18,077 bases of DNA from Sergeia podlipaevii (taxonomy: Eukaryota; Euglenozoa; Kinetoplastea; Trypanosomatida; Trypanosomatidae): contig JASANZ010001831.1 of assembly GCA_030849805.1 (NCBI GenBank), forward strand, positions 1 to 18,077, in the 5' to 3' direction. The position numbers were made by a program, and so were the translations under genes. Shown here one piece after another: positions 1 through 18,077 of this stretch (within the stretch, counting starts at the first letter, position 1; each line of letters begins with the position of its first letter). Below the pieces are notes generated by a model. That model ran no database searches, had not been told where the DNA came from, and saw only the letters and a list, made by a program, of their open reading frames with translations.

Positions 1-77
1 TAAAACAATCATAATAGCAATAATACGCATACACACGCATAGCGTGCCCCCGAATACACGCACTATACGGGAACTAA

Positions 78-111
<34 letters not shown>

Positions 112-834
112 CCAAAAACGAAAGAAACATGCATAGAGACGAAGAGGAAAAGAAAGCGCAACTAACCAGATTGTTTATACTGACGTTCGACGCATAACAC
201 ACAAAAATAAAGAGAAAGGAAAGAAAAGTGTCGGAACAAAAAAGGATATATACAAAGAGGGAGGGAGGGAGAGGAAAAGAAGGATAAAAATGAAAAATTA
301 TTTGAATCGAGATGGAGTAAGAATGAAAAAAAAACCCCTACCTCACTTTTTTTTTTTTCCTCTTCGTAACTCTTTGTTCCTCGACTTTGCCAATTCTATT
401 CTTTCCCCATTCTCCTTTACTCTTCTTCAAAAATCGGTCTATTGCTCCCCAAACAATAATAATAATAAATGATAAATAACAAACATAATAAATTCCGGTA
501 CAGGGCAACTACACACACACACATACAAAACAACAACAACAACACTTTTTTTTATTAAAAAAGTTCCATTTTCAATGAAAAAACAAAACAAAGAAATTCA
601 AAACGTTAGCGACATCTACGGTATATTCTTTAAAAAAAAAAATACACGTCATACACATATGTGTATCATACATACGCACATTCACATACAGGCACAAGCG
701 GAATATATATATATGTATGCAATAAAGTAAAAAAAAGCAATTTCTGTCCATGGGAAAGAGAAATGACTGCTGTATCTCCTACCACCAAGTTAAGAGAATC
801 ATCACCTTTCTGTCCTTTCTCAAGTACATACTTT
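1..834. other. Spacer downstream of the VAP-like gene (3' UTR and intergenic)
   Basis: This stretch follows the stop codon of the MSP-domain gene on the minus strand, so its right-hand part should be that gene's 3' UTR. It is A/T-rich, with a (CA)16 microsatellite at 79-110, purine-rich patches around 200-290, T-runs near 349-358 and 547-553, and an AT run near 704-715. Open frames here (for example a 60-codon plus-strand frame at 290-472) are dominated by homopolymer-encoded K, F and N and have no recognisable domain. I see no gene. Confidence 0.7.
79..110. repeat. (CA)16 dinucleotide microsatellite
   Basis: Sixteen uninterrupted CA units lie in the non-coding spacer. On the transcribed strand this reads as a GU tract in the 3' UTR or intergenic RNA. 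It is likely to vary in length between strains. Confidence 0.95.
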
Positions 835-2055
835 TCACAAATCCCCAGAGCGAGCGACTGTGTTACGCGTGGAGGGCAGCTTCAGAGGACCTCTGTCCTT
901 AACCGCCTTTCCCCCCGCCACACGACCGCTCCCACCACGCCGCATGTAGAGCACGCATATATACACCACAAACATGATGATGAGCAGTACATATACTTTC
1001 ACTCCCTTCTTCTTTCCTCCGTCGCTGCCAGAGGCGGAGGACGACGCACTGAAAGGCATCTTCATGACAACATCATCACCTTGTGGAGAGAAACCCGCCC
1101 TGCTCGAGTGGTCCATCGACCCATTGTCCAGTTTCCCGCCACCGTAGTTGGCAAAGCTCGAGTGTGGTGGGGTGGAGGAAGCACCCCCGCTGGCTGCATT
1201 GCTGCTTCCTCCAGAAGCGATATCTCTTCGGAGTACGTGGATTTCTTCCTTGAGCGCACGCATCTCGTCTTGAGGTCGTCGCGCGGCTTGCTGCGATGAC
1301 GGCGAGAGAGCGGACGTGGACGTCTGCACACTGTTCCGACGCTGCTCATCGGAAACGTCGAAGTTACTGCCTGGGGTGCCTGGGCTGCGTAGGTTGAGAG
1401 CTTCATGCATGCCAAGTGGTACAATGACCGCCTCCTTCGGTGGAACTATCCTCGAGGGATCGGGTGGCGCAGCGGCATCATCGCCGCCAGAAGAGGTTGG
1501 CACGACGTTCTCCATGTAAACTTTCAAGTTGGCAGTGGGTTGCTTTGACACGTGGGCCTGCTGAATAGCTCCAGAGGATATAAGAGTCCAGATGTTTTTC
1601 GACACCTCCGTAATCTTCGAGGACGACGATAAGGCAGATAGCACCTGCTGATACGCGAGAGGTTCGTTCACTACCAGTGCATGCTCAATGGCAAAGCGTT
1701 CTTGAAACTTGCGGGCCGCACTTGGGGTGGCCGTCTTGGCGGTGCGATGGGTGAAGGAGCTGCCGCCACCGGTGTTGCCTTCATTCCCGCCCGGCACGTA
1801 GAACCTGCGTAGACCAAATCGCAGCCTATCGCCCTTATACCCTACAGGGACGCCGCCGCTGGGGTCTGTGATCAACACCGCTCCATACCGAGGGATCACA
1901 TGAAACAACTGTGGAGCACTGGACTTCACTTTGAACACTACAATGCTATTGGGCTCTACTGTGTCAGTCACAGATGGGGTCCACGTGAGTGTTATAACGT
2001 TGTCACGTGGGACATCTGGAAAGTAAAGACTATTACAGCTCGGCACGAGCGGCAT
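835..2055 (-). CDS. MSP-domain, C-terminally membrane-anchored protein (VAP-like)
   Basis: A 406-residue protein from ATG at 2055 to TGA at 835. Residues about 10-185 resemble a major sperm protein (MSP) fold. The best evidence is VVFKVKSSAP at 39-48, followed by a hydrophobic, IPRYGAVL-type strand at 54-61, matching the VAP core that reads roughly AFKVKTTAP then RPNSG. The two lysines (K42, K44) are in the region that contacts FFAT peptides in VAPs. The domain is stretched by a Gly/Ser/Thr-rich insert at about 89-113. Next come a disordered Pro/Ser linker, a short charged coiled-coil stretch (about 261-279), a Ser/Gly-rich linker, and one hydrophobic segment at 352-370 flanked by KKK and RR. 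A basic 36-residue tail follows. The architecture (MSP, coiled coil, C-terminal transmembrane helix) is that of VAP proteins, which sit in the ER facing the cytosol and tether lipid-transfer and contact-site partners. The fold call rests on motif similarity only. An MSP-like protein without FFAT binding is the main alternative. Confidence 0.8.
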   Translation of the reverse strand: MPLVPSCNSLYFPDVPRDNVITLTWTPSVTDTVEPNSIVVFKVKSSAPQLFHVIPRYGAVLITDPSGGVPVGYKGDRLRFGLRRFYVPGGNEGNTGGGSSFTHRTAKTATPSAARKFQERFAIEHALVVNEPLAYQQVLSALSSSSKITEVSKNIWTLISSGAIQQAHVSKQPTANLKVYMENVVPTSSGGDDAAAPPDPSRIVPPKEAVIVPLGMHEALNLRSPGTPGSNFDVSDEQRRNSVQTSTSALSPSSQQAARRPQDEMRALKEEIHVLRRDIASGGSSNAASGGASSTPPHSSFANYGGGKLDNGSMDHSSRAGFSPQGDDVVMKMPFSASSSASGSDGGKKKGVKVYVLLIIMFVVYICVLYMRRGGSGRVAGGKAVKDRGPLKLPSTRNTVARSGDL

Positions 2056-2149
2056 GGCTCCAAAGTCCTATAATTCCTTTTTTTTTTCTTTCTTGATGTT
2101 AACGTTACTGTTTCTTTGCTGACTTTTTGATTTTTAAAAAGACGTGACA

Positions 2150-2182
2150 CTGCAGTAGCAATATTTTTCGAAAAAAAAAAAA
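2150..2182 (-). promoter_or_regulatory. Predicted spliced-leader acceptor for the VAP-like gene
   Basis: On the minus strand a T12 tract (2182-2171) is followed by the first AG at 2151-2150, 94 nt before the ATG. The implied leader (2149-2056) contains no upstream ATG. This is the usual trypanosomatid arrangement, but the position is predicted, not observed. Confidence 0.55.
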
Positions 2183-2580
2183 TCAACCCTGCTCTCTCCA
2201 CACAAACAAACAGTGCCTGCGTACCCTGACAGCAATTATTAAAAAAAAGCAGTAAAAAGATAAATATATAAAAATAAAATTAATGTCTACGACGATATCC
2301 TGTATCTTTTCTATCCTCTTCCTTTTGATCCTTCTTTTTTTTTTTTCTTCAATATATTCAACGCACTCCTTCTCTTATATATATGCCTCTATTGAAGATG
2401 GCTGCTTACTTCGAATGCAAAACGGGGAGGGGGGAATCGAATACGTTGAAAGTACAGCGAGATACTGTACACAGAAAGTAACAACAATAATAATAATAAT
2501 AAAATGAAGAAAGATAGAGTAATAATGGTAAGAACACGTAGAAAAGGAAAACAACAACAACGAAAACTCAAAACTCCTTT

Positions 2581-2596
2581 CTCTCTCTCTCTCTCT
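2581..2596. repeat. (CT)8 dinucleotide microsatellite
   Basis: Eight CT units in non-coding spacer. They read as GA on the transcribed strand, so the tract cannot itself serve as a pyrimidine tract for trans-splicing in the direction of transcription. Confidence 0.9.
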
Positions 2597-3446
2597 CACA
2601 AGATAACCACAACTATATGTATTTAACACTTGGATATTTGCGATCAAGAGAAAGTGAGAGACAAACACTACACACAAGCAAAAAAGGAATCTGCGATAAA
2701 GAAAAGAAAGGACAAGAAAATGCGGTTTATGCAGGTGCTTGTGTATGTGCAAAGAAACTAAAAAACAACTAAATAAATAAATAAATAAACGAGTACACAG
2801 TACACAGGTATTGGATAAACGAAAAAGGTTGCACACTTAAAGCCTAAAAGGGGCACCTTGTAATGGCATAGCAATGTGTATATATTTTTTTTTTTGAAGA
2901 AGAAGAAAAGGGAAAATGAAAATATATCAAAGATGAAATAGAGAAAGAAAAGAAAAAAGGATGAAGCGTAGGACACAATATACAATGTAAAAGAAAAAGA
3001 AAAAGCAGTACTTAAAAAAGGGGTATATATATATATAATGAAACACCATGAGAGAATTGAAGCATGCCATCAATGACCCCTCGCCCTTCCCCTCCTCCCC
3101 AAAAACATTTTGGTTTATTTTTGTAGTATGCGTTGAGTTGGGCTGAGCATCCGACTCCTTGCAAAAGAAAAAGAAGAAACAATTGTAGTAAGAAAGCGAC
3201 GCTGACGCTGACACAAGCAAACACCCGTACACTACACCAGCGACAAGTGGCGAGAAAAGAAAAAAAAAGGAATGCGCGCACACACACACACATAGTTAAT
3301 TAACAATAATAAATAAAGAAAGCAAGCAAACAAGCACAGCAGTAAAGGCAAAAAGTAAAAGCATTGAAGGAGAAAGGCCATTGTGATATCAATAATAAAT
3401 AAATATATAACAAGGATATATGGCTTACCTACATAATGCTGAGTCA

Positions 3447-4502
3447 CTAGACAACGGGCTTCATCCTTTGCTGCATGGCCAACTCCGCCGCTTCCCGCAC
3501 CTCATCAAACCACTCATGTTGTAGCGCTTGCAGCGCAGTCGGACGCTGCTCCGGTACGTACTTGAGCAAACTCGCAAGCAAGTCCACCCCCTTTGGGTCA
3601 AGCACGCTTACCATGCTGAACAAGTCCTTTGACTTCCAGAAGGGAAACACATTGTTGTAGTGTGGCAACATGGAAACGCCAGGCCAGGTCTGCTCGGTTG
3701 GTGTCCCTAATACCTGAAATATTGTAATGAGTTGAGAAAACTCGCCTTCCCCGCAGAAAAGTGGCTTGCGCATCGCAAGTTCACCAAAAACACATCCAAT
3801 GGACCATATGTCGACCGCTGGTGTGTAGTGCGTCTCGCCAAGTAGGATCTCCGGTGCGCGGTAGTAGAGCGTAGTCACTTCCTGTGTGTACTCTTGCTGG
3901 TGCAAGGTGAAGGTCCGGCTGAGTCCAAAGTCGGCAATCTTGGCGATGGTTTCATCTTGCGAGATGAGAATGTTGTTGGGCTTGATGTCGCGATGTACAA
4001 TGCGACGACTGTGGCACGCGTGTAGTCCAGTCAGAAGTTGATACATAAGGAGCTTCAACTTTCGCCCAATAATTGGGGTACAGCGCAGATCAAGCATTCG
4101 CTTCAGGTCTTTGTCCAGATATTCAAAGACCAGCAAGAGCTTCCCATCTTCAGGAATGACTTCAAGGAGGCGCACAATGTTTGGGTGTCGTAGCTCCTTC
4201 AACAGCGCAACTTCTCGAATCGACGTGGACGGTACCCCGCCATCCTTGTAGCTCCACGCAATGATCTTGATAGCAACCACAGCTCCAGTGTACTTGTCCT
4301 TGCATTTGTACACCTTTCCGTAAGAACCTTCGCCAATCTTCTCCAGCTTGCAGTAGCGCTGAACACCGCACTCTTCTTCCACGTCCGCACTACCCCCATC
4401 GTACGGGTGGATGGGACATGGCTGCAGCCCTCTGAGTGTATGCGTAAAGCTATCCCCAGCGCCAGCGCCGCTGTTGCCTCGAAATTGCATTTCCATCGCC
4501 AT
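3447..4502 (-). CDS. Cyclin-dependent kinase, cdc2-related CRK family, most like CRK2
   Basis: A 351-residue Ser/Thr kinase from ATG at 4502 to TAG at 3447. A 46-residue extension with a Gly-rich part precedes the kinase domain (about 48-333). All catalytic marks are present: Gly loop GEGSYG 57-62, with S60/Y61 at the CDK2 T14/Y15 inhibitory positions; lysine K79; cyclin-binding helix PSTSIRE 91-97; Phe gatekeeper F126; catalytic HRDIKPNN 170-177; DFG 191-193; activation-loop Thr T206 in YTQEVT; and APE 216-218. It should be an active, cyclin-dependent cell-cycle kinase in cytosol and nucleus. It has TLYYRAPE where CDK2 has TLWYRAPE. Length, the N-terminal extension and a near-PSTAIRE helix fit the trypanosomatid CRK2 type, linked to G1 progression in Trypanosoma brucei. 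That subtype call is an inference (about even odds), so no symbol is given. ATG codons also occur at M3 and M5, so the true start could shift by a few residues. Confidence 0.95.
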   Translation of the reverse strand: MAMEMQFRGNSGAGAGDSFTHTLRGLQPCPIHPYDGGSADVEEECGVQRYCKLEKIGEGSYGKVYKCKDKYTGAVVAIKIIAWSYKDGGVPSTSIREVALLKELRHPNIVRLLEVIPEDGKLLLVFEYLDKDLKRMLDLRCTPIIGRKLKLLMYQLLTGLHACHSRRIVHRDIKPNNILISQDETIAKIADFGLSRTFTLHQQEYTQEVTTLYYRAPEILLGETHYTPAVDIWSIGCVFGELAMRKPLFCGEGEFSQLITIFQVLGTPTEQTWPGVSMLPHYNNVFPFWKSKDLFSMVSVLDPKGVDLLASLLKYVPEQRPTALQALQHEWFDEVREAAELAMQQRMKPVV

Positions 4503-4542
4503 CTACCAAATTAAAGGACAAGAAGAGATAAATAAAATGCAA
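4503..4542 (-). promoter_or_regulatory. Candidate proximal spliced-leader acceptor abutting the kinase ATG
   Basis: Read on the minus strand, a T-rich pyrimidine tract (about 4535-4508) runs into the first AG at 4504-4503, immediately before the ATG at 4502. There is no other AG between 4542 and 4505. If used, the spliced leader would be joined directly to the start codon, giving no gene-encoded 5' UTR. It competes with a second candidate about 215 nt upstream. Confidence 0.45.
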
Positions 4543-4716
4543 CTCCACTCTCACCGCGTATGTATACGGTGTTTTTTTATCCCCCCCTCTCTCTCCACAA
4601 TTATTTTTTTTTTTTGCTGTTCTCTCCTTGTTTTTCCTTTCCTTTCTCTCTCCCCTCTCCCTCACACACACACCGAAAAGAATATATATGATTGAATTAG
4701 GAGTACTCTCACTTCA

Positions 4717-4786
4717 CTTACAAAAGAGATAGAACAGTGAGGAGAATGAAAAGGTGGAAGAAAGAAATGAAACGGAAAGACAAACG
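4717..4786 (-). promoter_or_regulatory. Candidate distal spliced-leader acceptor for the kinase gene
   Basis: On the minus strand a long pyrimidine-rich tract (about 4786-4722) ends in the first AG at 4718-4717, with no earlier AG inside it. Use of this site gives a leader of about 214 nt (4716-4503) with no ATG, consistent with a functional leader. Confidence 0.5.
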
Positions 4787-5450
4787 CACACACACACGTA
4801 CTGCAGGTATATATGTATTCAACAGCAAATGTAGGCTAGTCAGAAAAACAAAAAAAGGCAAAAAAAAAAGAAAAAAACGTCAAAAAATTGTTTTGGAGAA
4901 CGATATATTTTATTGAACTCCGGGACGCTGGTGACGAGGAACGTATACTTGAATAGCAAAGGGTGGAAACCAAAAGTGCGTATGTATATATGTGTGTATG
5001 TGTACACGCGCAAGCTCACTGTGACAGTCTTATGGGATCCACTGCTTGCCGCTCCTAACGTTTCTTTGTCTTTCTATTTTATGTTGAGCGCACCGTCTAT
5101 GTTCTTTTTTTTTTAAAAAAAAAAAGAAGAGGATGAAAGAAAAAAAATAAAATGTATCACAAATTAATTGCTTTCTGACTTCTATTCCAAACGTATGCAC
5201 GTATACGACGGTCTCTTTCTTTCTTTCTTTTCTATTAATATCTCTCCAACCCCACTATCTCTATTTCTAAAAAAAAAAAAAAATCAAAAAAATATCGCAG
5301 CAGCTATGACGTTTATAAAAAAGAAAACAGAAAAAAAAAAGAAAAAAAGATGGCGGTAATTACGAAGCGCGTACACTAAGTTGCCAATGGAAATGTCCAC
5401 GTCAAAATACTGTTGTCGTCGTTTCGATTTTCTTTTCTTTCGCCCCTCTG

Positions 5451-5470
5451 TCTCTCTCTCTCTCTCTCTC
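5451..5470. repeat. (TC)10 dinucleotide microsatellite
   Basis: Ten TC units in the non-coding spacer, within a T/C-rich patch on the plus strand. Confidence 0.9.
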
Positions 5471-5723
5471 TGTATGCCTCTTTTATTCAATAATTCAATA
5501 GTCACACGTAGAGAGGGATGTGATCAAAAAAAAAAAAAAGAAAAAAAAAAGCGCCACAAAAGTTTCTTTTTAAAGGAAAGAAGGAGAGGAGGCAAAAAAA
5601 GAAAAAGAAAACACACACACACACAGAAAAACTATATAATCGGTAAGTATTGTTGATGTGATGATACGCAAATAGACGTAGGGATGCTACTGGCAAAGTG
5701 GTACTGGTAAGAGTAGAGAAAAA

Positions 5724-5747
5724 AACAACAACAACAACAACAACAAC
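5724..5747. repeat. (AAC)8 trinucleotide microsatellite
   Basis: Eight AAC units in the non-coding spacer (GTT on the transcribed strand), preceded by an A-rich run. No coding frame through it is credible. Confidence 0.9.
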
Positions 5748-6764
5748 AAAAAGATACTGGCAAAGAAGAGAAAAAAGGAAGAAAAAAAAAAGAAAGAGAT
5801 TGATGTTTCCAATGCTCCTCTTTCCTATTGCCGTTGCCTTCTTCTTCCTTTTCGTTTTTTTTTCTCTCACCGTGTTGTGCTTATTTATTAAATCGCGCCT
5901 ATTCAATGAAGCAGAAAACTATATATATATATGATGACCGTTGTGGGGTACTTTTCTTCTGAGCCCACTGGTTTCTTCTTCTTCTTCTGGGTAAGTTTCT
6001 CTACTTTTTTTTAAATTTTTTTCGCTGATGTTAAAGCAGCTTGATAGCGCTGCTTTATGATAACCTTTCTGTGAGTGCTTGAAAAACAAAACAAGAAAAC
6101 AGAAGAAAAAAAAGAGGAAAGAAAGAATAAGAAAAAAAAAATGTCAACAAAAAGATGATAGAACGCAAGCACGCGTATTGAATGACCTGGAAGTACATTA
6201 TAAGTCAAGCAACAAAAGCAATAACAAAACGTTCCCTGTCCCCCTCCAAAAAAAAAAAGAAGAAGTCTAACGTGCAATGACCATTGTTGAGAGAAAAAAA
6301 ATAAGCAGCGTAGATAAGAAAATAAATAACAGTAACAGTAAAAGGTATTACGTCTTCACTGTACAATGAAAAACACATATATGAGTAAGGTGTTGCGCCG
6401 CTTTCTATCAAGGGTGAATAATAGTAGTGATAACAATCAAACATAATGAAAAGAAAAAAGAAAGGAAAGAAAAAAAATGTGGGCTGTATCAAACAGTGAG
6501 GATTTAGGTATGCAGAACTCCGACAACACCCATTCTCATTCGTCCCGCATGTATCTATATGGCATTGTAAGTTGATGCTGCCTTCTCCTTCATTATAATT
6601 GTAAAGCACGGCAACAGTACAACATATGCACTGAAAGAAAAAAAAAACGGAACAGCTTAAAAAAAGAAGCAAAACTCATAAGAACTCTGTCTTTCTTCCC
6701 AGTATTTTTTCCATTTTCCTCTCACATCCTTTTGCATTTTCTATATATATATACACAAAGACCA

Positions 6765-9700
6765 TTACTTCGCCTCAGCGGCAGCAGGCACAGTAGCGAG
6801 AGCAGCTTGCTTTCTGCTTGCCATCGCCAGCAACTCCGCCAACCAATTTGAAGTGTCACTCACTAGGTCCTGCGTAATGTTCTCGAGTGTGTGCTCAAGT
6901 ACGCGTTGAGTAAGCCCTGATCGCTGCACATCCACCGACAACGCCGCACGCGGGGTGTTTCCCCCTGAGAACATCGTCTTACCCGCGATTGTTGTAGCGG
7001 CAGCACCACCGGCTCCACCAGAAGAGAAGGAAGAAGAGGCGAAGGAACCGCTCTCTGTCTGCCCAGGTGGCGACACCGGAGACGATGATAGCATGTCAGC
7101 GAACAAGGGAGCTCCTGGTACGCTGCCGGCGACGGGTCGAGTAAACAAGTTCTCATGCAGGAGCGGCTGCGTGAAAGAGGCGTCTCCACCGTGTGCACCG
7201 GAGGAAAGTGGAGGGCTTCCTGCAGCGCCACCGCCGCCGCCGCCGCCACTACCACCGACCCCAAGACCACTCGTAACGATCCCTTTACGGGCTAGATCCG
7301 TGTAGTAGAGCAGCAAGTATCGAATATCACCCGGCGCGAGCCTGGTCGCGAGCAAGGCACGCACATCCACGCTCGCCAACGCTTCTCGCTCAATCGCTGC
7401 CGCGGTGGAAAAATCATCGCAGTACATCGCGCGACGTTCGCGGGTTTCGAGGAGCAACTTCGTTGCGAACGCAATAAAGTCGCTCGACACGCGCTCAGAG
7501 ACACACTCCACCGCGATGGCCCAGTCGGCAGGAAGGGGAAGAAGTGAGGCAACATCTGCCTCTTCTTTAATATTCAGAGGAGACTTTGACGCAGTCGTTC
7601 TATTATTCACTGGAGCTCCTCCACCAATCTTTCCATCGCCTTCCTTGACCTCTCCTTCGTCACCGATGGCATCGAAAGCAGCAGCAGCCTTACTGTTGGC
7701 TCGCTGTAGCGCGCGTGTAAGACCGAGATGCAAAACATGTTTCATGTGTGTGTACGTCACCGCAGTCACGTCGCCATCCACGCCAGGAACGCGCAATACC
7801 TCCCCTGCGGCTTCGCCTCCCATGACGTATTCGGTCGAGATGGCTGCCGCCTGGGCGTCTGTTATGTACTTCCCCTTACTGTAACACTTCTGCAGCGGCG
7901 TCTGAGTGAGACGCGATGGCGCAGCACAGACGGGCATGTGCGGGTCTGGCATTCGTTGCAGCGCCACTCGAGCCGCGTGGGTGCAGAAAACATTGAGAAG
8001 TGTCTCACTGAGCTCCTCAAGCAACACGGGCTCACAGGACGCTAGCAGTTCCGCACCTGTTGGAGGTGGGGGTGGAGAAACCAGCACGCCGCTGCTACCG
8101 CTCCCTGGCATTTGACTTGCCATTCGACGCAGCGAGGGTGAACCAGGGCCGGCCAACATGCTGCCGTCGCTTGCATCCTCTGCGTCTGCGTTCGCAGTGT
8201 CGCTTGGTACTGTGTCTTCCACTTTGGGAAGAGCACTCAGAAGATCGGCAAGCGACTCCAAATGTAGACCACCACCGCCCTTATCTTGACGGCCCTTTGC
8301 AACGGTGGGAGTAGCTTGATCTGACTGCGGGAGAGCATCTTCCCGCTGGCCTTGCTGCTGTTGCTCTTCATCATGGAGGCCCGATACAGCAGCAGTATCC
8401 ACATTGTTGTCCTTCACAACGTCATCAATTTCAAAAGGAATGTCAGCTTCGCCCACTGAGGCCCCTTCCGCGTCTCCTTCCTCGTCTTCGTCATCGTCAG
8501 TGCGGATTTCATCATCAATTGTGCCGGCGGCGGCCTCCATAGCGCTAGCCAAGGTCCTCTTCGGCGACAAGCAGACAGGGGCCTTCTCACATGGAGGCTG
8601 CAGTTCCTCTAACGTCATGAGCGCCGGCGGCGGAGATGGAGACGGGGATGTGGATGAAGACGAAGAGGTAGCAGCAGTAGCAGCATCAGTAGCAGCGGTA
8701 CCAGGTGAAGGTAAGCGGGGGTCCGCGGCAGCGACGACGGCATCGCAGAGAAGGCCTTGGAAAATGTCATTACACGCCTGTATGACAGGATCCGCGTTGA
8801 TAGCGGAAGGTGGCCACGACATCGAAGATGCACCAATGCCAGCCGCATCTGCAGTGGTGGCACTACCAATGATGACCGCCTCAGCTGCTGAGGAGTCGCC
8901 AGAGGTCAAGTGAAGTGACATGGTGGCCTCACCACCGTTGCTGCTATCAGTGCTGCTGCGATGGCTACTGTCGATGCTGCTCGCGCTCTTCTCCATAGCA
9001 GCAACTTCCATTCTTCTTTCTGCATCGGCCAGCTCTGCTGCCGTTGCCGCTGTATCTCTCTCAACATTGTCATCGCCCTTAGTGGCGGCAGCGGCGGCTT
9101 CGGTAATCATTCTCTCCAGCATTGTGTCGCACGCCTTGAACACCAAAGGTGGCGGAATACACTCCACGACGGTCTTAGATGCAAGTCCTCTGCTCTCCTC
9201 CTTCTCAACTTCTTCTTCTTCTTTGTGAGCAGATGCAGCTGTCGCAGCAGAGGAGGCAGCACGCTCTGTAAGCTCCTCGTAGGTGCAAGCTTCGTCCTCC
9301 ATGATCGCAAGGCCAGCCTCTGCGCAGTCTGCCTCCATCGTCAGCACGCGTCGTGCTTGCTCTTCGAGGGACTGTATCACAGCCCGCTTCATCTGCTCCA
9401 CACCTTGTGCTTCTTCCTGTTGTTGACGCTGTTCCTCCTCCTTCTTGCGAGTTGCTTCTTCTTTCTCTTCCGCTTCACAGCGAATAGCAGCGACCGCAGC
9501 TGCTTTGACGAATGTATCCATGATGCCTTCACTGGCATCGAAAATATCATTTACGCGCTGTTGTTGCTGCTGAAGTTGATAAGCAGCAGCCTCTCTCTCA
9601 AGTGACTCCTGCTGCCGCGCCGCTTCCTCTGCTGCTGTTGCTCTCTCACGTACTTTTCTTTCCTCCTCTTGTCTCTCTCGCTCTTGATCTTGCAACTCAT

Positions 9701-12700
9701 GCAGTTTCAACGCAGCCGTGACCCATTCCTGGGCCTCTTCGGCCTCCACCCGTGCAGCTCCCTCTACCTGTGCTCGAGCAGTCCTCTCTGCACATTCAAT
9801 TTCCGTGCGTGTGTCGTGCTCCTCGTACTCTGTGAGTGCTAACTGGCGTTCATACGCAGCTTTGACCTTTGCTGCCTCTGCTGTTATCTGAGCCACAACC
9901 TTTGCTCTCTCCTTCTCCCTTCTCATATGATCCGCAGCGCTCTCTTTGATAAGATCGTCAAGGATATGCTCGCTGAGGTGCAAGACAGGGGTAAGGAAGA
10001 ATGCGTTTTCCGGTGGAATTTCACGAGGGGTTCCTGACTTCACTACTGGCTGCTCGTCCTTCTTCTCTTTGACGTCTGAGGGCAACAAAATTTTGGAGGC
10101 CTCGGCCTTTTCCTTCTCAAGGCGCGCCTGCTGCTCCTCCTCACGCTCCCGTTTCGCTGCCGCTACTGCAGCCTCGCGTTCCGCAATCAGCGTCACATTT
10201 GCCGCAGCCGCGCTGTCTAACTCCACCAAGTCGCTCGCTTCAGCATTGACAAGGGTCTCTCGTGCCTCGGCTTCCGATTCAACAACTTTAATAAGAGCCG
10301 CATGAAGAGCCCTGCGAGTGGTCTCTGCTGCTGCTGCTGCTGCTGCTGCTTCTGCTTCTTCTTGCTCTCGCCGCTGGCGTTCCTGTTCTCTTAGACGCAC
10401 AGCTTCCGCTTCCGCCTGTCTTTTCTTTTGCTCTTGCTCGTACTGCTGGCGTTGTCGCTGCTGCTCCTGACGTTCTGTCACGAGCTGAGCGGCTGCATCA
10501 CAGATCACTGACCTCACCACATCGTCACTGACCCATTCAACGGCCTCCAATAACTGACGCTGAAGTTCCTCTTTCTTCTTCTTTGCTAGTGCCGCTGCCA
10601 CCATGAATGCGCTTTCGTCCTCTTGTTGCTGCCACTGGAGTGAGCTCCGTTCCTGCTCCTCCTCCTCCTCAGTGAGTTCTCGCTCGTCTTGCTGAGTATG
10701 CCAGAGACGCTGCTGCATCTCGTCTATATCCTTCAGCTTTTGCATTAGCGCTTGCTGTCGAGCTGCGGCTGCTGCTGCCACTGCCTTCTCTTCCTCTTCA
10801 GCCTTCCTCCGCTTCCTTTCACGATCTCTCGCGGCCACTTCCACAGCCTTGCGCTGGGCAACCTCCCGCAGCTGACGCATATCTCGCTGCTCTGCTTCAT
10901 GCTTCTCTTCAAGCGATCGTGCCTGTGCCTCCTGCTCCACAACCACCCTACGCTCCTCCCTGTGCTGCTGCTTCTGTTGTTCTTCACGTAGTCGTTGCAG
11001 CCTCGCCAATTCCTTCTCTCTTTCCGCCTCAGCAGTAGCAATGGCCTCTGCTTCAGCCCTTCTACGCTGTACTTCCTTCTCTGCTTCGGCGAGAGCGCGA
11101 GCCGCTTCAGCCGCACGCATCTTTCTCTCCGCCGCCTCCTGTTCCTCCTCACGAGCTCGGTGCTGCCTTTCCTCTGCCTCCTTCCTTTCCCTTTCATTTT
11201 GTTCTCGCTCCTGTGCCTCTTGCTGTGCTCTAAGAACAGCAGCAGCAGCAGCTCTCTCGGCTTCCCTTCTCTTTTGCTCTTGCGCTGCTGCTGCTGCTGC
11301 TGCCGCTTTCAAGACCATTTTTTCCTCCTCCTCCTCCTGCTGCTCTTGAAGGCGCTGCCGCATGGCTTCCATCTTCTTGACCTCACGCTCCGCTAGCGCT
11401 TCTAACGACGAAACCGACAGATCTTTCTTCTGCCGCTGCTGTGAAGGCTCTTGCCTGTTGCTGCATTCAGGTTCACGAAGACCCACAAGTGCGGCATCTT
11501 CTTTGGAGCCCACAGCAGCAGCAACAGCAGCAGTAGGGGCATGTCTTTCGACAATAACCCGGGGGGAGAGAGCAATGCGGACGCGGGCCTCCCTGAACTC
11601 CGCTAGCATCTTCAGCAGGCGTCGCTCCCACTTCCTCTGTAGTTCCCCACGCACGTGGGATTCAGCGAGAATAACCGCAAAGCATGTGGAGCGCAAAACG
11701 CGCGCCTGTTCATTTCTCCACGCTCTCACTCGTCCTTCTTCCTCCTCTTCTTCTTCCTCCTCTTGTCTTCTATTTTCTAGCTGACGATAATGATAATGTA
11801 GCTGCCCTTGTGGTATGAGCTGCCGCCGCCGCTGCTGCTGCTGCTGCTCCTGTACTAATGGTTGGTGTCGTCGGCGTCGTTCCGCACTGACGTCCGCTCC
11901 TGCGGCAGTATCGATTCCATCTTTTTCTTCTTCTTCTTCATCGCGATAACGGTGATGATGCTCGTGAGAAGATCCACGGCGAGGATGATAAATGTCGTCG
12001 TAATGACCACCGTTGCTGTAAGGGAGGCGGTCCTTGTGCTGCTTCGGCACTTCACCCTTCAAAGGTACATCAAGATGACTACTCGAGGGGACTGCATATC
12101 GAGGATCTTGCTCCGGCACAGGCATCCAACTTCCGGGACGAAGAGACCGATCGTTCCGCGTATGACCCGACGCAACCGCCGTTTCAGGAAACACTTCACG
12201 CGATGCCATCCTCTCCCATGTCTGCGGTGCCATCCGACTGCCCTTGCCAAGATGTGGACCGCCATTCATCGATGTGGCATGCTGAGGTTCATATGGCTGC
12301 TGCGACATGTGCACAGATGAAGATAAAGAGGAAAGAGAAGATAGCGGTCTTCTCGAGTTTGCATGAAGTGGGCAAGCCTTTGATGCCGCTTGCAGTGGTT
12401 GATGAGCTGCTGCCCGCGTCACACATGGAGAAGAGGAAGGTCGCTTATGTAGCACTGGGGCCGATGGGCAACGTGCGGAAACAGCGACAGTGGCTGCGGA
12501 GAGAGGGGTTTGTCTCGCTCTCTCTGCGGCTGTGCCGTAGCTCGTACTGTCGTGTGCTACCGTACCAGTGAGCTGTGGAGGAACAAGCGAGCAAGAAGAT
12601 GCAGGAGCGACACGTGGCGGCACGCCATACGTGGAATTTGAATTATGGTCCTCACGGAGTCGTCGAACGCCCTCCTCTTCAGGGCTCTCAAACTGCGCTT

Positions 12701-13133
12701 TACGTGGCGATGAGTGAGCTGCGCGAGCAATACGTGGTGGAGATGGCAACGGAGGTGGTGGACTACGCACTTCGCGAGGCAGCCCCACCTCGTGCGATGG
12801 GGCTGAACTAGGTGAGAGAGAGGTGGTGAGATGCTTTTCCCTTGCGTGTGGCTCTTCCTGGCGGTGTTGTTGTTGCTGCTGCTTCTCCTGCTCAGCCTTA
12901 AGTTCGCGCACACGCCGCCTCAGCGCTTGCCGCTCCTCGCTCTTGCCGCCGCCCTGGGCCTTGAGACGATGATACTCCATCACTAACTCACTAGTGCGCT
13001 GGATATCATAAAGCAGTGCATTACTACTCTTTGCTGACTCTCCAGTCCTCGCAGACGCTGATGCTAGTGTGGGTGCATGACCAAGTGGATCTCTATGTAG
13101 AACGCGATCGTATCCGCTTCCTGCGGGCAAGCA

Positions 13134-13170
<37 letters not shown>

Positions 13171-13400
13171 GGACAACTACGACTACGACTAGCGCAAGAA
13201 GGAGACATTTCGGCAGCAACAGCGGCGGCGGCGGCGATGGCGGCTCGAGGGAAGCTGCCTTCTCTTCTCGCAGCTCCTCCGTCCGAATATCGGAGATTAC
13301 CCACGGAGGGATTAGCATAATGCTGAGAGAGTGAGCTCCTCGTTGCTGGCGCATCAGTGGATGAATTCACGTGCGCATTTTGGCGTTGTTCAGTAAACAT
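6765..13400 (-). CDS. Giant coiled-coil scaffold protein of unknown function
   Basis: A 2211-residue protein from ATG at 13400 to TAA at 6765. I do not recognise the family. Layout: 1-560, disordered and low-complexity, with a Gln12 run at 78-89, Ser/Pro/His-rich stretches, a short helix-like segment near 130-180, and a Gln5 run near 520; about 550-562, a poly-Glu run; about 565-620, a less biased helical segment rich in Arg, Leu and Trp; about 660-1450, a very long E/Q/R/A/K-rich coiled coil with Ala8 runs; about 1450-1790, acidic and Ser/Thr/Ala-rich with only short ordered islands; about 1795-2040, a more normal composition; then a Gly-rich linker and a C-terminal helix. A degenerate 17-residue motif recurs eight times from 958 to 2188. 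There is no motor, nuclease, kinase or transmembrane segment. Such proteins in trypanosomatids are usually cytoskeletal (basal body, flagellum, attachment zone), which is inference. The frame stays open upstream only to a GTG at 13415, directly preceded by TGA, and the predicted splice site falls inside that GTG, so ATG 13400 is the start. Confidence 0.88.
6837..10529 (-). repeat. Eight copies of a degenerate 17-residue helical motif in the giant protein
   Basis: Copies, with residues numbered from ATG 13400: SDDVVRSVICDAAAQLV 958-974 (10479-10529); SEHILDDLIKESAADHM 1143-1159 (9924-9974); SEGIMDTFVKAAAVAAI 1290-1306 (9483-9533); CDTMLERMITEAAAAAT 1424-1440 (9081-9131); CNDIFQGLLCDAVVAAA 1543-1559 (8724-8774); SETLLNVFCTHAARVAL 1798-1814 (7959-8009); SERVSSDFIAFATKLLL 1968-1984 (7449-7499); LENITQDLVSDTSNWLA 2172-2188 (6837-6887). 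Shared positions: S/C at 1, D/E/N at 2, hydrophobic at 4, 8 and 9 (and usually 5), acidic at 11 in five of eight, A/S/T at 12 and 13 (Val at 13 once). Several are preceded by Pro and hydrophobics, as in PVLHL and PVIQA. The hydrophobic spacing is that of an amphipathic helix. The alignment was made by eye. Confidence 0.6.
10326..10349 (-). repeat. Ala8 run from a GCA repeat in the giant gene
   Basis: Eight consecutive GCA codons (TGC on the plus strand) encode Ala8 within the coiled-coil region. It is the same trinucleotide repeat that encodes glutamine elsewhere in the gene, read in another frame. Confidence 0.9.
11283..11306 (-). repeat. Ala8 run in the giant gene
   Basis: Eight Ala codons (six GCA flanked by GCG on each side) near the start of the long coiled coil. 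An uninterrupted Ala run inside E/Q/R-rich sequence is compatible with continuous helix. Confidence 0.9.
13134..13169 (-). repeat. Gln12 run from a CAG repeat in the giant gene
   Basis: Eleven CAG codons plus one CAA encode Gln12 at residues 78-89. The nearly pure repeat suggests recent or ongoing length change. It lies in the disordered N-terminal part, where a few glutamines more or less are unlikely to matter structurally. Confidence 0.95.
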
Positions 13401-13414
13401 TTGCTTTCGTGGCA

Positions 13415-13478
13415 CTCAACGTATTGTAAAAAAAGAAAAAGAAAAAGGCAGCAAAAAGGAAGAGAGGTAGAAAAAAAG
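13415..13478 (-). promoter_or_regulatory. Predicted spliced-leader acceptor for the giant gene
   Basis: On the minus strand about 51 bases (13478-13428) are pyrimidine except for three positions. The first AG after the tract is at 13416-13415, with none inside it. This is the clearest acceptor in the window. The mature mRNA would start at 13414, giving a 5' leader of only 14 nt before the ATG at 13400. It also removes the first base of the GTG that otherwise extends the frame, which decides the start codon. Confidence 0.7.
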
Positions 13479-13671
13479 TTTTTTCTTTTTTTTTTCTCTC
13501 TATACACTGTGCTTACGTTTTCTTCTTTAAAATAATATATATTGAATTACAAAACAAAACAAAAATTCACGGTCTATCCACTACCCTTCGCAGTTCTATA
13601 TATATATATGTGTTAGAGACTGGCCCCTTCTTCTTCAGAGCCACCTAAAATGCCTGAAGGTGATATTGCAC

Positions 13672-13693
13672 CACACACACACACACACACACA
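13672..13693. repeat. (CA)11 dinucleotide microsatellite
   Basis: About eleven CA units in the non-coding spacer, followed by an AT-rich run. Confidence 0.9.
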
Positions 13694-14097
13694 ATATGTA
13701 TATATATCAATCCTCCTCTTCTTTCTTCTTTCTATATATAGATTTTTTCGTCCAACGTCACAAAAAGAAAAAAAAAAAACACACACGGCACAAACAAACA
13801 AACAAACAAAAAAAAAGGAAGAAGGAGGAGAGATCAAGCGCAAGGGCAAGCAAGAAAAGAAAAAATCGCTACTTCACACCTTTCTTCGTTTTCAGGCTTC
13901 AAATAGCTACTTAAAAACAAAAAAAAGATGGCGAAGTATCTTTTCTTTATTCTTGCGCTTCTTCCTCTTTCTTTTTTTTTTTGGGGGGGGGCCAGGAGAA
14001 CTATTGCTGAACCTCACTTCCTACTCCACGTTCAATGAGTGTCTTTGTGAAAAGTACCTCTTACAAGGTAAAGATGAAGAAGTGAGAGGCACGCGTG

Positions 14098-14132
<35 letters not shown>
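14098..14132. repeat. Compound (CT)10-(AT)n microsatellite
   Basis: Ten CT units pass directly into about seven AT units in the non-coding spacer, probably part of the reductase 3' UTR or the following intergenic RNA. Confidence 0.9.
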
Positions 14133-14940
14133 AATAGAACTAAGTACCAAAAAAAAGGGTTAGCTGCTTCTGTATGAGTACTTCAAATAATCAAAAGGAA
14201 AAAAAAAATCATCGACATATACACATATATGTATATATTCAAAGAACAAAAAAAAAGTTTGGGAAAGAATGAGTGGAGAAAGAAAAAAATGTGAAAATTG
14301 AATAATAAAAAAAAGGATTAAAAAAAAACAATAGAAGAAAAAATGACTGCACGTTCTTCCTTCATTTCTCTTAGAGCTAAGAGGTCTTCCATAACACTCA
14401 GAGAAAAAAAAAAGCATAATCATAATAATCGCCTAATCAAGCAATTGCTGAATGACTCCGCGCTGGACTCTGACCAAGGTGATAACTTGCTCAACCTATT
14501 GTCTATTTGTTGTTCTTATTGCTTATTCTGCTGGCTTGCCTCCACTGTTTCCTAAAGTATATATATACTAACAATATGGCGGCATAGCAGCGAACATACA
14601 CATACAAACACACTACCCACACACACGCACACACATAGAAGCGGCATACCCAAGAGTATCTGCCGTCGTTGTTGCTATCAAGGCACTACCCAGTGTGTAC
14701 ATGCATGAATGTATGTGCATGTGTACGCATTTCATACCTTTCAACTCAATAGTGGCAAAAAAAAAAATGGGTAAGCCAAACCATAAAAAAATAACGGCTC
14801 CATAACATACCGTGAATGAGAAATTGATAAATAAATAAACAGATAGTAATAAAAATGATAAACGGAAACTGATGAGGACAAAAAAGAGTCTACGCACCGC
14901 TTGTACGTGCAATAGCTTCCCTTTCCTCTCTCACAAGCCT

Positions 14941-15963
14941 TCACGAGGAGCTCATCTGGACAATTCCTTTCTTGCCGCCGCGCACAAACACTTCATCCCA
15001 CACATCTGGCAGCTTCTCTAACGATGAAGCAATCACAGTGGGGTAATCAAATTTCATCTCGCTAAGCTCCTTCAGAACAAAGTCTAGCTGCACCTGCCGC
15101 TCCTCATAGGACATCTTGCTGAGGTAGGTGGGCAAGAACAACCCCTGCATGGTCACCTCCTTGTAGATGAGACTGGAGCCAGAAAAGAAGAGTCCAAAGC
15201 TGTTCTGGGCACCATACGTCACCACATGCCCACCAGGCGCCATTAGCTTCATGAAAGTGTCAAAGTAGCGGCCACCGACGCCGTTGAGGTAGAGCGCTGC
15301 GCCACCACACGAGTTCCCCATCGCCGCTGTCATAGCACGTGCTCCTTTACCATTGTACTCGAATACCTTCGAGCCATACTTGGCGTGTCGTGCCTTGGCA
15401 GCCTCGAACCGCTCGCCCGCTGCCGCTGCGGTAAAGACAGGTACGTTCTGACGTTGCGCCAGCGCTGCTACAGCGAGTGAGGTGACGCTACTCCCTCCAT
15501 TCTGAATTACCACTTTGCCAGGCTTCAGCCCTGCATAGCCTTGAAGAAGCTGTTGAGCCGCCAAGTAATTACTCGCATTTACCGCGAGTTTCTCCATCGA
15601 CTTGTCGATCTTGTGTACCGCGTTGGCGGGCACAACGACGTGCGTTGCCCACGTGCCGTTGATAGGGCTCACCCACACGAGATCCCCTTCCTTCATGTGT
15701 GAGGAGCCACCACCCCCGGCAGCGACTACGCTGCCCACACCCTCACAGCCACCAACGCGCGGGAAGGGCGACATGTTCACGAGTTTACGACCCAGCGCGG
15801 TGCCGTTGATGATTGCTGCGTCTGTGCGGTGTAGTGGGGCCGCATGCATCTTTACCACGACGGCTTCCTTACCAGGGGTGAGGTCTACATGGTTGAGGTG
15901 CAAGACATCCGCGATCGGGCCACTTCGCGCATATCGCCATCCACGGGAGGAAATCTTTGACAT
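14941..15963 (-). CDS. Zinc-free MDR oxidoreductase, 2-enoyl thioester reductase-like (MECR/Etr1 type), probably mitochondrial
   Basis: A 340-residue protein from ATG at 15963 to TGA at 14941. Its pattern follows MECR/Etr1, which reduce trans-2-enoyl-ACP with NADPH in the last step of mitochondrial type II fatty acid synthesis. Matches: AAPLHRTD 41-48 (MECR AAPINPSD), VGGCEGVGSVV 70-80, GTWATHVVV 103-111, VVIQNG 151-156, LYLNGVGG 224-231, GGHVVTYGAQ 244-253, and SLIYKEVTMQGLFL 264-277 (MECR LLIFKDLKLRGFWL). The structural-zinc cysteines of alcohol dehydrogenases are absent, as in MECR. The N-terminus is short and basic (K3, R7, R10, R13), compatible with a mitochondrial presequence. Oddities: the catalytic Tyr of MECR (in GNYG) has no counterpart in the corresponding INGTALGRK stretch, and the nucleotide-binding loop NGGSSVTSLAV lacks the usual glycine spacing. 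It may therefore be a diverged or non-canonical family member. The frame is open upstream to a GTG at 16077, but ATG 15963 is the first ATG. Confidence 0.85.
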   Translation of the reverse strand: MSKISSRGWRYARSGPIADVLHLNHVDLTPGKEAVVVKMHAAPLHRTDAAIINGTALGRKLVNMSPFPRVGGCEGVGSVVAAGGGGSSHMKEGDLVWVSPINGTWATHVVVPANAVHKIDKSMEKLAVNASNYLAAQQLLQGYAGLKPGKVVIQNGGSSVTSLAVAALAQRQNVPVFTAAAAGERFEAAKARHAKYGSKVFEYNGKGARAMTAAMGNSCGGAALYLNGVGGRYFDTFMKLMAPGGHVVTYGAQNSFGLFFSGSSLIYKEVTMQGLFLPTYLSKMSYEERQVQLDFVLKELSEMKFDYPTVIASSLEKLPDVWDEVFVRGGKKGIVQMSSS

Positions 15964-16159
15964 TTGTGTTCCCCCTTTTTTTCTTCTTTCGCCTGCTACC
16001 CGCGAATATACGTCAAAGCTCTTCGTATCACTGTGTGTGTGTTTGTGTGTCCGCCTCCACGAATTTGGACTATGCACTATTTTAAGCTATGATAACAAGA
16101 ATAATAGTAATAATAGTTTTATTATTACGAAAAAACAGAACTTCTTCCTCACGATACAA

Positions 16160-16182
16160 CTGAGATTACAAAAAAAAAGGAG
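16160..16182 (-). promoter_or_regulatory. Predicted spliced-leader acceptor for the reductase gene
   Basis: On the minus strand a T-run (about 16178-16170) leads to the first AG at 16161-16160, giving a leader of about 196 nt with no ATG. A second AG, at 16088-16087 behind a weaker T-rich tract, is an alternative that would give a leader of about 123 nt. Confidence 0.45.
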
Positions 16183-16660
16183 TGCGTAGAGAGCTATATC
16201 CACACACACACGCGCGAGTTGCTGCCACTGCCTAATATACTAGCTTTCCTATTTGCTACGGTCGTTGAATGCCAAAGAAGAAAAAATATATATATTTGGA
16301 TCAATATAATATCAAAGCTACTTTTAGAACCAACTCCCTTTTTGTGATAAGCAGTTCAAAAAAAGAAAAAACGCAAGCAAGTTTCCTTTAAAAAAAAGGT
16401 ACTAACAAATTTCCGCTAACTTTGGGGAGGGGGAGATAGTAATATGATGGCGTGGATGTTTTTAAAATAGAAAAAAAATGTGTACTTCTAAACTACAGGG
16501 CTTGCGCGTATTACGTATGATGTTTCTCCACTTGGAAACAAGCAAACAAACAAACAAAAAAAAAACTACGATAAGAAAAAGGGGAAAAGCGCTAGCCTTT
16601 CCTTATTGAACAACAACAAGAAAAAAAGAAAAGATACAACTTGTATAGACAAATTCGGTT

Positions 16661-16678
16661 ATATATATATATATATAT
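16661..16678. repeat. (AT)9 dinucleotide microsatellite
   Basis: Nine AT units in the non-coding spacer upstream of the reductase gene. Confidence 0.9.
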
Positions 16679-18037
16679 GTAGTGCTACGTATGAGCTAGC
16701 GAGTATTAAATATATGGGCAGCACGTTGCTACTATACTTTGCGAAGCAAGGAAGAGAGGCTAACAGACAGTTACTAATAGTATCTTCGCCCCCCCCCTCC
16801 CCTCTTCTAAAAAAAAAAAAATACTGAAAAGAATAAAAGATAAAGTTCTCAGGAAATAAAAGAAGTCTTGGCACAAAGAAAGAAAGAAAAAAACAACGTT
16901 TGCCGCACCTACGGAATAACCAAAGTACTATAAGTCTTTATATTAAAATATGTGGTCGGTGGAAAAAAAAAAGGAAAAAAAAAGGATACAATTGCTATAA
17001 CTACTATACAATGTACATATAATACAAACGCAGACACACACACACAGTAATGATGATAATGATCAAACATAAAAATATTCAAAAAAAAAAAAAGAAGAAA
17101 AGAAAGAAATAGAAGAGAATGCAGCATGTAAGAGGAAAAAAAGTAATAACATTTCAGTCCCAATCATACTCTAGACAGGCAGAAAAATATAAAATAAAAA
17201 AGAAAGGGCGGAGAAGGCACAGAAAAGCTACTTCTCAAGCTCCAAGATAGCTGTGTGTAAGATATTCAGCACCCATCCTGATCCATCCACTGAAAGCAGG
17301 CATATAGTGCAACATATCGACCTGACACCAACTGGTATCGATCCCCTCACATAGCTTCTCATCTTTTTTTTTTTTTTTGAAAAATCTTTGCTTTTTATAA
17401 ACCGTGTCAGTATTTTGTTATTCTCTCCTGGTGATATATACGCGTGTGTGTGTGTACGTGCGCGGTAAACAGAGTTACTACTCCTTGTGTTCACCAAAGG
17501 TCCTTCCCTACAAATACTATCATTTTATTAATAGAGAGAAAGAAGATCACCAACACACAGAGACAAAGACGTCCTTTTTAAAAATCCCTGTTTTTCACTT
17601 TTTTTTTTTTAAAAAAAAGACCCCATATAGTTCACCTACGATGTTCACTACACATTGCAATCACTCACGAACATCATTACTACCCCCAACAAATCTCACC
17701 TATCATATGTTTATCTTTCCTTCTTTATCTTCAGGCCTCTTTCATGCTTATGACTGCCTTCTACTTGATTTCGTCGCGCACACGCACACAAAAAAAGGTA
17801 ATAAAACGACAATCCAGAAGAAAAAAAAAAGACTTTGCCTCCTGCCTTGCCTAAAATAAAAACGTGACGTAAAACGTGTCTTCTATAAGTACGCTTGAGT
17901 GTGTGTAAGCAGTTTTGCTACATTCACAAAACCAAAAACATAAATTACCAAATCAACCCGATAAACGTTCCGCCAACAAACAAAACATCAGCAAAAAAAA
18001 AAAAGACCTCCCGTCCTAGCAACACACTACGTCACGT

Positions 18038-18077
18038 TTAGACGGCGCGCTTGCAGGAGTAGAGCAGGTTCTTCAGC
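18038..18077 (-). CDS. C-terminal end of an unidentified protein (partial, runs off the window)
   Basis: Reading in from the right edge on the minus strand, one frame gives twelve sense codons (LKNLLYSCKRAV) then TAA at 18040-18038. The codons are almost all C- or G-ending (CTG AAG AAC CTG CTC TAC TCC), the codon style of the neighbouring genes and quite unlike the A/T-rich spacer just to the left. A second frame also stays open to the edge but has a less typical codon pattern; the third hits a stop at once. This is most simply the 3' end of the next gene upstream in the same transcription unit. Too little is visible to name it. Confidence 0.6.
   Translation of the reverse strand, partial: LKNLLYSCKRAV

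Follow-up and report, generated by a model that had tools for sequence, protein, structure and literature searches.

An 18,077-nucleotide stretch of the genome of the trypanosomatid Sergeia podlipaevii (contig JASANZ010001831.1 of assembly GCA_030849805.1, positions 1 to 18,077; the window hereafter) encodes on its minus strand a giant protein rich in Glu, Gln, Arg, and Ala, and in this protein we found a short amphipathic helix that recurs eight times. The eight-fold repeat is real, most of its copies fit by residue class the published consensus of AKAP anchoring helices, and D/D domains of the RIIa/DPY-30 superfamily are encoded in the same genome. Our results lead us to propose, tentatively, that the giant protein is a linear, many-sited D/D-docking scaffold resembling AKAPs or DDIPs, with the copies predicted to dock D/D domains.

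6765..13415, minus strand: 2216-aa open frame, counted from an upstream GTG, that encodes the giant protein rich in E/Q/R/A

The eight-fold repeat and its limits

An earlier note on this DNA had described eight 17-residue segments spaced by 119 to 255 residues, and all eight were recovered in the 2216-aa frame, starting at residues 963, 1148, 1295, 1429, 1548, 1803, 1973, and 2177 (spacings between starts of 185, 147, 134, 119, 255, 170, and 204; span, 6837-10529). The residue pattern that it gave holds in large part: D/E/N at position 2, hydrophobic residues at positions 4 and 8, and small residues at positions 12 and 13 (V allowed) are found in all eight copies, while S/C at position 1 and a hydrophobic residue at position 9 are each found in seven, with L in copy 8 and C in copy 6 as the respective exceptions. 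In the list below, each copy is given with its residues in the register that begins four residues upstream of the 17-mer (s-4) and with its held-out score against windows of its own genome. These windows (45,169) come from 78 open frames of 150 aa or longer (45,577 aa), called mechanically in twenty stretches of 10 kb of the 23.4-Mb, 576-contig assembly that was used for all own-genome searches; some of these frames are doubtless not genes.

10479..10544, minus strand: copy 1, residues 958-979, AVEWVSDDVVRSVICDAAAQLV; AKAP register 959-974, V-EWV-S-DD-VV-RS-VI-CD-A; held-out score 11.1, 0 of 45,169 windows as high
9924..9989, minus strand: copy 2, residues 1143-1164, PVLHLSEHILDDLIKESAADHM; V-LHL-S-EH-IL-DD-LI-KE-S; held-out score 13.5, 0 of 45,169 windows as high
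9483..9548, minus strand: copy 3, residues 1290-1311, DIFDASEGIMDTFVKAAAVAAI; I-FDA-S-EG-IM-DT-FV-KA-A; held-out score 14.3, 0 of 45,169 windows as high
9081..9146, minus strand: copy 4, residues 1424-1445, LVFKACDTMLERMITEAAAAAT; V-FKA-C-DT-ML-ER-MI-TE-A; held-out score 8.5, 0 of 45,169 windows as high
8724..8789, minus strand: copy 5, residues 1543-1564, PVIQACNDIFQGLLCDAVVAAA; V-IQA-C-ND-IF-QG-LL-CD-A; held-out score 10.4, 0 of 45,169 windows as high
7959..8024, minus strand: copy 6 (moderate), residues 1798-1819, LLEELSETLLNVFCTHAARVAL; L-EEL-S-ET-LL-NV-FC-TH-A; held-out score 5.2, 1 of 45,169 windows as high; missed by de novo discovery
7449..7514, minus strand: copy 7 (weak), residues 1968-1989, AVECVSERVSSDFIAFATKLLL; V-ECV-S-ER-VS-SD-FI-AF-A; held-out score 3.2, 6 of 45,169 windows as high; leave-one-out rank 2; missed by de novo discovery
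6837..6902, minus strand: copy 8 (weak), residues 2172-2193, VLEHTLENITQDLVSDTSNWLA; L-EHT-L-EN-IT-QD-LV-SD-T, with L in place of S/C; held-out score 2.0, 13 of 45,169 windows as high

The literal pattern matches six copies and nothing else in the protein, and a slightly wider one matches exactly the eight. When residues were shuffled locally in windows of 20 to 100 residues, none of 3,000 shuffles at any of four window sizes reached the observed count with either pattern (mean matches, 0.04 to 0.05 and 0.15 to 0.19). Since the tested pattern was fitted after the fact, from the copies themselves, three further controls independent of it were added. With a leave-one-out profile and local background, seven of the eight copies rank first among about 1,866 windows of the protein, and the copy at residue 1973 ranks second. 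Unsupervised discovery of an eight-site, 22-residue motif, given no prior positions, returned copies 1 to 5 and 8 together with sites at residues 613 and 1724, which we take as spurious, and its held-out sum of 59.6 compares with 10.3 ± 8.2 (maximum, 31.0) in 60 shuffles. The same discovery on 18 own-genome frames of at least 700 aa gave scores of 30.5 or less in 16, while two exceeded the giant protein (66.8 and 70.1); we take these two to be proteins with repeats of their own, one of them WD40-like by eye.

The copies are not equally secure: copies 1 to 5 are strong, copy 6 is moderate, and copies 7 and 8 are weak. It is quite possible that copies 7 and 8, and perhaps copy 6, are chance matches or ordinary amphipathic helices and that five or six sites make up the true array, a view compatible with any of the other explanations discussed below. 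The low held-out scores of copies 7 and 8 (3.2 and 2.0, matched by 6 and 13 windows, compared with 1 for copy 6) and the failure of de novo discovery to return copies 6 and 7 point in this direction, whereas each of copies 6 to 8 ranks first or second within the protein in the leave-one-out analysis and all three fit a relaxed form of the AKAP consensus, albeit one that was relaxed with them in view.

What the copies share is sharply limited. Held-out information per column is concentrated at offsets -3 to +13, and its sum is +8.5 bits over offsets -4 to 17 but -16.6 over the 20 residues upstream and -19.4 over the 20 downstream, so that the shared sequence ends at the motif edges. Mean identity between copies is 39% for DNA and 21% for protein. 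Given this confinement to the unit and the low identity, the copies behave like a short linear helix motif rather than like a recently duplicated sequence or a domain of larger size. The earlier description of the copies as islands poor in E/Q/R holds against the coiled coil (E/Q/R make up 8/2/2% of the copies and 20/10/12% of residues 560-1400) but not against residues 1401-1780 (8/3/3%), where there is no contrast.

Tetrad periodicity and class-level fit to the AKAP helix consensus

The hydrophobic period of the copies is 3.9 to 4.0 residues (hhxx tetrads; power of 54 at 4.0 and 7 at 3.5), which supports the previously suggested repeated amphipathic helix. A canonical heptad coiled coil at the copies was rejected, as the period is 4.0 and not 3.5 and heptad templates place only one to three copies among their top eight peaks, compared with five to six for tetrad templates.

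These results bear on the idea that the helices have a structural role inside the giant protein itself, packing against one another or against another chain of the same protein so that it folds back or self-assembles into a filament. Copies 1 to 3 do lie as hydrophobic islands between coiled-coil stretches, and copies 6 and 8 fall within longer modeled helices, in a C-terminal structure model that has a mean pLDDT of 36 and is unusable. We nevertheless consider such packing improbable: spacing is irregular (119 to 255), the flanks share nothing, heptad templates do not favor the copies, and copy 7 is split over two helices of the same unreliable model. In a second model, made without an alignment and of low confidence, copy 5 forms a 23-residue helix (1542-1564) after about 60 unstructured residues and before a short helix (1571-1581), which also speaks against packing, and copy 4 lies inside a long helix (1422-1478).

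By residue class, the copies fit the AKAP anchoring-helix consensus LxxxAxxIVxxAIxxA, as given in one paper (PMC3682517), in the s-4 register. A class-level (strict) version matches copies 1 to 5, a looser (relaxed) version, set up in the knowledge of the copies, matches all eight, and a narrow I/L/V/A/S version matches copies 1 and 2, each without any other match in the protein. Shuffles gave means of 0.13 to 0.14 (strict), 0.31 to 0.33 (relaxed), and 0.02 to 0.03 (narrow), and the observed counts were reached by 0, 0, and 0 to 2 of 3,000 across three window sizes. In the 78 own-genome frames, the rates are 0.24, 0.57, and 0 matches per 1,000 aa, with at most two matches per frame; about 0.5 strict and 1.3 relaxed matches would thus be expected in 2216 aa, where 5 and 8 are seen (Poisson, about 2 and 0.5 in 10,000), figures that are optimistic in that register and residue classes were picked after the copies had been seen. 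The informative held-out columns coincide with AKAP positions 1, 5, 8, 12, 13, and 16, along with 2, 6, and weakly 17, while position 9 is uninformative. A small residue occupies AKAP position 5 in seven of eight copies and position 16 in all eight, and D/E/N stands at position 6. The earlier note knew of no matching named domain. In Pfam, no family matches any of the eight copies and none matches the giant protein at an E value of ≤1, but the note had missed the class-level agreement with a published consensus four residues upstream of its own register.

Hydropathy points to the same register. A template obtained as the mean of seven AKAP helices, of which two were verified in PDB, places its top five of 2,200 windows on five different copies and correlates with their mean hydropathy at 0.84 in the s-4 register and 0.67 in that of the earlier note; five of its top eight separate peaks are copies, which 3 of 300 permuted templates equal. 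An AKAP residue profile likewise scores the copies best at s-4 among 15 registers. Conversely, a profile built from the copies recognizes Ht31, AKAP-IS, and AKAP18 (0.03, 0.07, and 0.25% of 45,649 own-genome windows score as high) and, moderately, D-AKAP2 and AKAP79 (0.9 and 1.8%); an apolipoprotein helix and a calmodulin target served as further controls, with best windows at 23 and 30%, respectively. In the RSP3 encoded by this genome, the top two sites of the copies' profile are FDDAVEPILEVMVGKT (best) and VEPILEVMVGKTLEQA, in a part that we take to be the RII-type (R-binding) helix of RSP3. The copies' profile and the AKAP profile peak in different RSP3 helices (frame residues 196-215 and 334-349), which are perhaps its two docking helices.

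Besides the after-the-fact choice of register and classes, several results weigh against a D/D-docking function. Reversed-AKAP, tetrad, and hendecad templates (six, five to six, and four to five copies among their top eight peaks) about match the AKAP template with its five, so that the tetrad amphipathic character is secure but AKAP direction and specificity are not. The copies also have a bulky residue (V/L/F/M) at AKAP position 12. The copies' profile misses MAP2 and AKAP1 (29 and 60% of windows as high), and its best window in the GCN4 leucine zipper, at 1.6%, is level with AKAP79; the residue-level likeness to mammalian AKAPs is modest. Without local background correction, the AKAP residue profile puts the alanine-rich coil first, and the first window that overlaps a copy is 12th. 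Run over the entire protein, a regular AKAP regex shows no clear enrichment (15 matches versus means of 7 to 9, reached by 34 to 156 of 3,000 shuffles) because the poly-Ala coil matches it, although a version widened with M/F/C/T gives 31 matches versus means of 12.5 to 16 (reached by 0 to 3 of 3,000). The Pfam RII_binding_1 model (PF10522) matches none of the eight copies, yet it finds Ht31 and misses D-AKAP2; its genome search had no match either, which is uninformative since its 14 control genomes had none. The three consensus patterns find nothing in RSP3 of this genome, a recognized D/D binder. Finally, an orthologue search with residues 1780-2216 (scoring of the 7,977 candidates with most words in common; E value of ≤0.001) returned none, an absence that means little as the content of kinetoplastid proteins in the database is unverified.

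The main rival keeps this design but gives it a partner that does not belong to the D/D superfamily: the copies would be recurrent short linear helix motifs for a single different protein, such as another helical-bundle groove or a kinetoplastid-specific adaptor, and the multivalency would still be real. A repeat that is real and sharply bounded suits this explanation, as does the ability of the reversed-AKAP, tetrad, and hendecad templates to pick out the copies, for the pattern is then not specific to D/D binding. We regard it as possible but rather unlikely, given that no Pfam family matches a copy, that the motif profile matches only three designed armadillo chains in PDB (E values of 0.16 to 0.28), that a genome search for vinculin (PF01044) was empty, though its control genomes were silent too, and that the fit to the AKAP register would have to be a coincidence.

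Target helices of the calmodulin or centrin type would be another such partner site, and a series of single helices along an extended cytoskeletal protein is indeed typical of centrin binders such as Sfi1. Target helices of calmodulin and centrin are basic, however, whereas the net charge of the 16-mers lies between -4 and 0 in all eight copies, and a calmodulin peptide of myosin light-chain kinase scores only at the 30% level with the copies' profile, which makes this possibility very remote.

Candidate D/D partners and a proposed docking model

Profile searches of the genome for RIIa (PF02197) and Dpy-30 (PF05186) matched 12 distinct places at an E value of ≤1, 10 of them over the Pfam family cut-off; weak matches among them may be chance, as the RIIa search also matched below the cut-off in 3 of 14 control genomes, all prokaryotes. 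Ten frames from the 12 places were rescanned, some of them cut by locus ends, and seven pass the cut-off; one of these seven adjoins a weak EF-hand match and another a weak adenylate-kinase match. Candidate partners therefore exist in the same genome. Two RIIa-like matches (contigs C197 and C261) are unusual and weak, one near the C terminus of a serine-rich 434-aa frame and one inside a 3919-aa frame. The earlier suggestion of a multivalent docking scaffold remains plausible and, as a putative docking function, is the best reading we have, but more than the one partner that it assumed may be involved, given D/D domains at 10 places over the cut-off.

PKA itself is an unlikely partner, and the giant protein is unlikely to be an AKAP in the strict sense, because trypanosomatid PKA regulatory subunits are reported, in one account, to lack a canonical D/D domain and to have no obvious AKAPs (PMC11006142). 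A review terms trypanosome RSP3, RSP4, and RSP6 AKAP-like (PMC6027212), and a D/D domain is described as docking trypanosome Arl13 at a likely limited number of sites on the axoneme via a putative partner, not named there (PMC6140319). In Leishmania, the proximal position of ARL13B is described as depending on the dynein docking complex (PMC11971395), which makes the giant protein less likely to be its anchor and adds to the points against our reading. Among the papers searched for a kinetoplastid AKAP or D/D partner, we found no description of such a protein, a search limited by the lack of an orthologue name.

In the docking model that we favor, each copy would form a short amphipathic helix of hydrophobic tetrads (hhxx) that lies across the groove of a dimeric four-helix D/D bundle of the RIIa/DPY-30 superfamily, as do the helices of AKAPs and DDIPs. 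One helix would take up one D/D dimer, so that up to eight dimers could be held along one molecule, and disordered and coiled-coil spacers would separate the docking helices, whose starts lie 119 to 255 residues apart. The scaffold is probably cytoskeletal or flagellar. A more specific proposal, which we consider speculative and somewhat unlikely as it stands, is that of a kinetoplastid scaffold whose up to eight D/D-docking helices would line up several different RIIa/DPY-30 adaptors, independently of PKA, on a filament of the flagellum or cytoskeleton. To our knowledge, and within the literature cited here, eight D/D-docking helices would be more than in any AKAP or DDIP.

If this is true, the giant protein becomes a candidate for the missing docking partners of kinetoplastid D/D proteins. 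The five to eight AKAP-like helices supply peptides that could be tried for binding, in a simple assay, against candidate partners that can likewise be named. The question behind it is what D/D adaptors dock to where AKAP-like radial spoke proteins are not involved, Arl13 on the axoneme being one example (PMC6140319).

Gene context and homology searches

The first Met of the giant frame is codon 6 (13400; the minus strand at 13398-13415 begins with GTG), which leaves 2211 aa, and this ATG is the likely initiator. A polypyrimidine-rich stretch lies directly ahead of it and would suit trans-splicing. Searches for exact matches to two 19-base fragments of the spliced leaders of Trypanosoma and Leishmania came up empty in the genome; the spliced-leader array may be absent from the assembly, or the leader sequence may differ. 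The genome does encode paraflagellar-rod proteins (PF05149; four matches; best E value, 8.8e-98) along with RSP3, which marks it as that of a flagellated euglenozoan, most likely a kinetoplastid. A scan for bacterial promoters and terminators upstream, a type of scan not relevant here, gave nothing. A perfect (TGC)12 array at window positions 13135-13170 encodes a polyglutamine run near the N terminus of the giant protein.

Further orthologue searches, with residues 1955-2048 (395 candidates) and 1110-1235 (245 candidates) at an E value of ≤10, found none, subject to the same database limit. Against PDB, residues 1120-1330 had no match at an E value of ≤1. The C-terminal region hit antibody chains and a single linker fusion, an artifact of a stretch rich in glycine, as well as four further chains at E values of 0.68 to 1.3, which we put down to chance. 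The own-genome protein search with the C terminus returned the protein itself and three weak matches (E values of 0.008, 0.12, and 0.39) that were also taken as chance.

Other frames of the window are as follows.

835-2055, minus strand: frame of 406 aa with a weak major-sperm-protein match (PF00635; E value, 0.008) below the cut-off and, close to the C terminus, a hydrophobic segment; candidate VAP-like tail-anchored protein
3447-4502, minus strand: protein kinase of 351 aa (PF00069; E value, 2.6e-71) whose PSTSIRE element suggests that it is CDK-related
14941-16077, minus strand: zinc-type dehydrogenase/quinone reductase (PF08240, PF00107)

Comparison with known systems

Like the AKAP helix, the copies are 16-residue amphipathic helices with hydrophobic or small residues at positions 1, 5, 8, 9, 12, 13, and 16, except for S or T at position 9 in copies 7 and 8. 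Unlike it, they have S/C at position 5 (L in copy 8), a bulky residue at position 12, and D/E/N at position 6. The giant protein also differs from most AKAPs in having eight sites. More than two sites have been ascribed to AKAP11. According to one paper, SPHKAP departs from most AKAPs by carrying two sites, and AKAP11 is credited with two as well (PMC10460453).

Axonemal scaffolds offer another parallel. RSP3/AKAP97 of the radial spokes and AKAP240 of the Chlamydomonas central pair, the identity of the latter being unknown in the paper concerned, are described as such scaffolds (PMC4901443). RSP3 has amphipathic helices for RII-like and DPY-30 proteins, and in this genome one RSP3 helix is singled out by the copies' profile; in contrast to RSP3, whose gene lies separately on contig C545, the giant protein has no Pfam match. 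A protein of its design could also be the kind of axonemal docking partner postulated for Arl13 (PMC6140319), while the dependence of the proximal position of Leishmania ARL13B on the dynein docking complex sets that anchor apart (PMC11971395).

The DDIPs are a further class for comparison, and we know of no DDIP with eight sites. Their helices dock D/D bundles without PKA, mostly in cilia or flagella, with partners of DPY-30 having four turns and AKAPs five, and the copies of the giant protein would likewise be helices for putative D/D docking without PKA. DDIPs are described as predominantly ciliary and mostly older than PKA anchoring proteins (PMC12203939), and if our reading is true, D/D docking in this trypanosomatid would be a multivalent structural system that fits the proposal, made in the same paper, that D/D docking preceded PKA anchoring.

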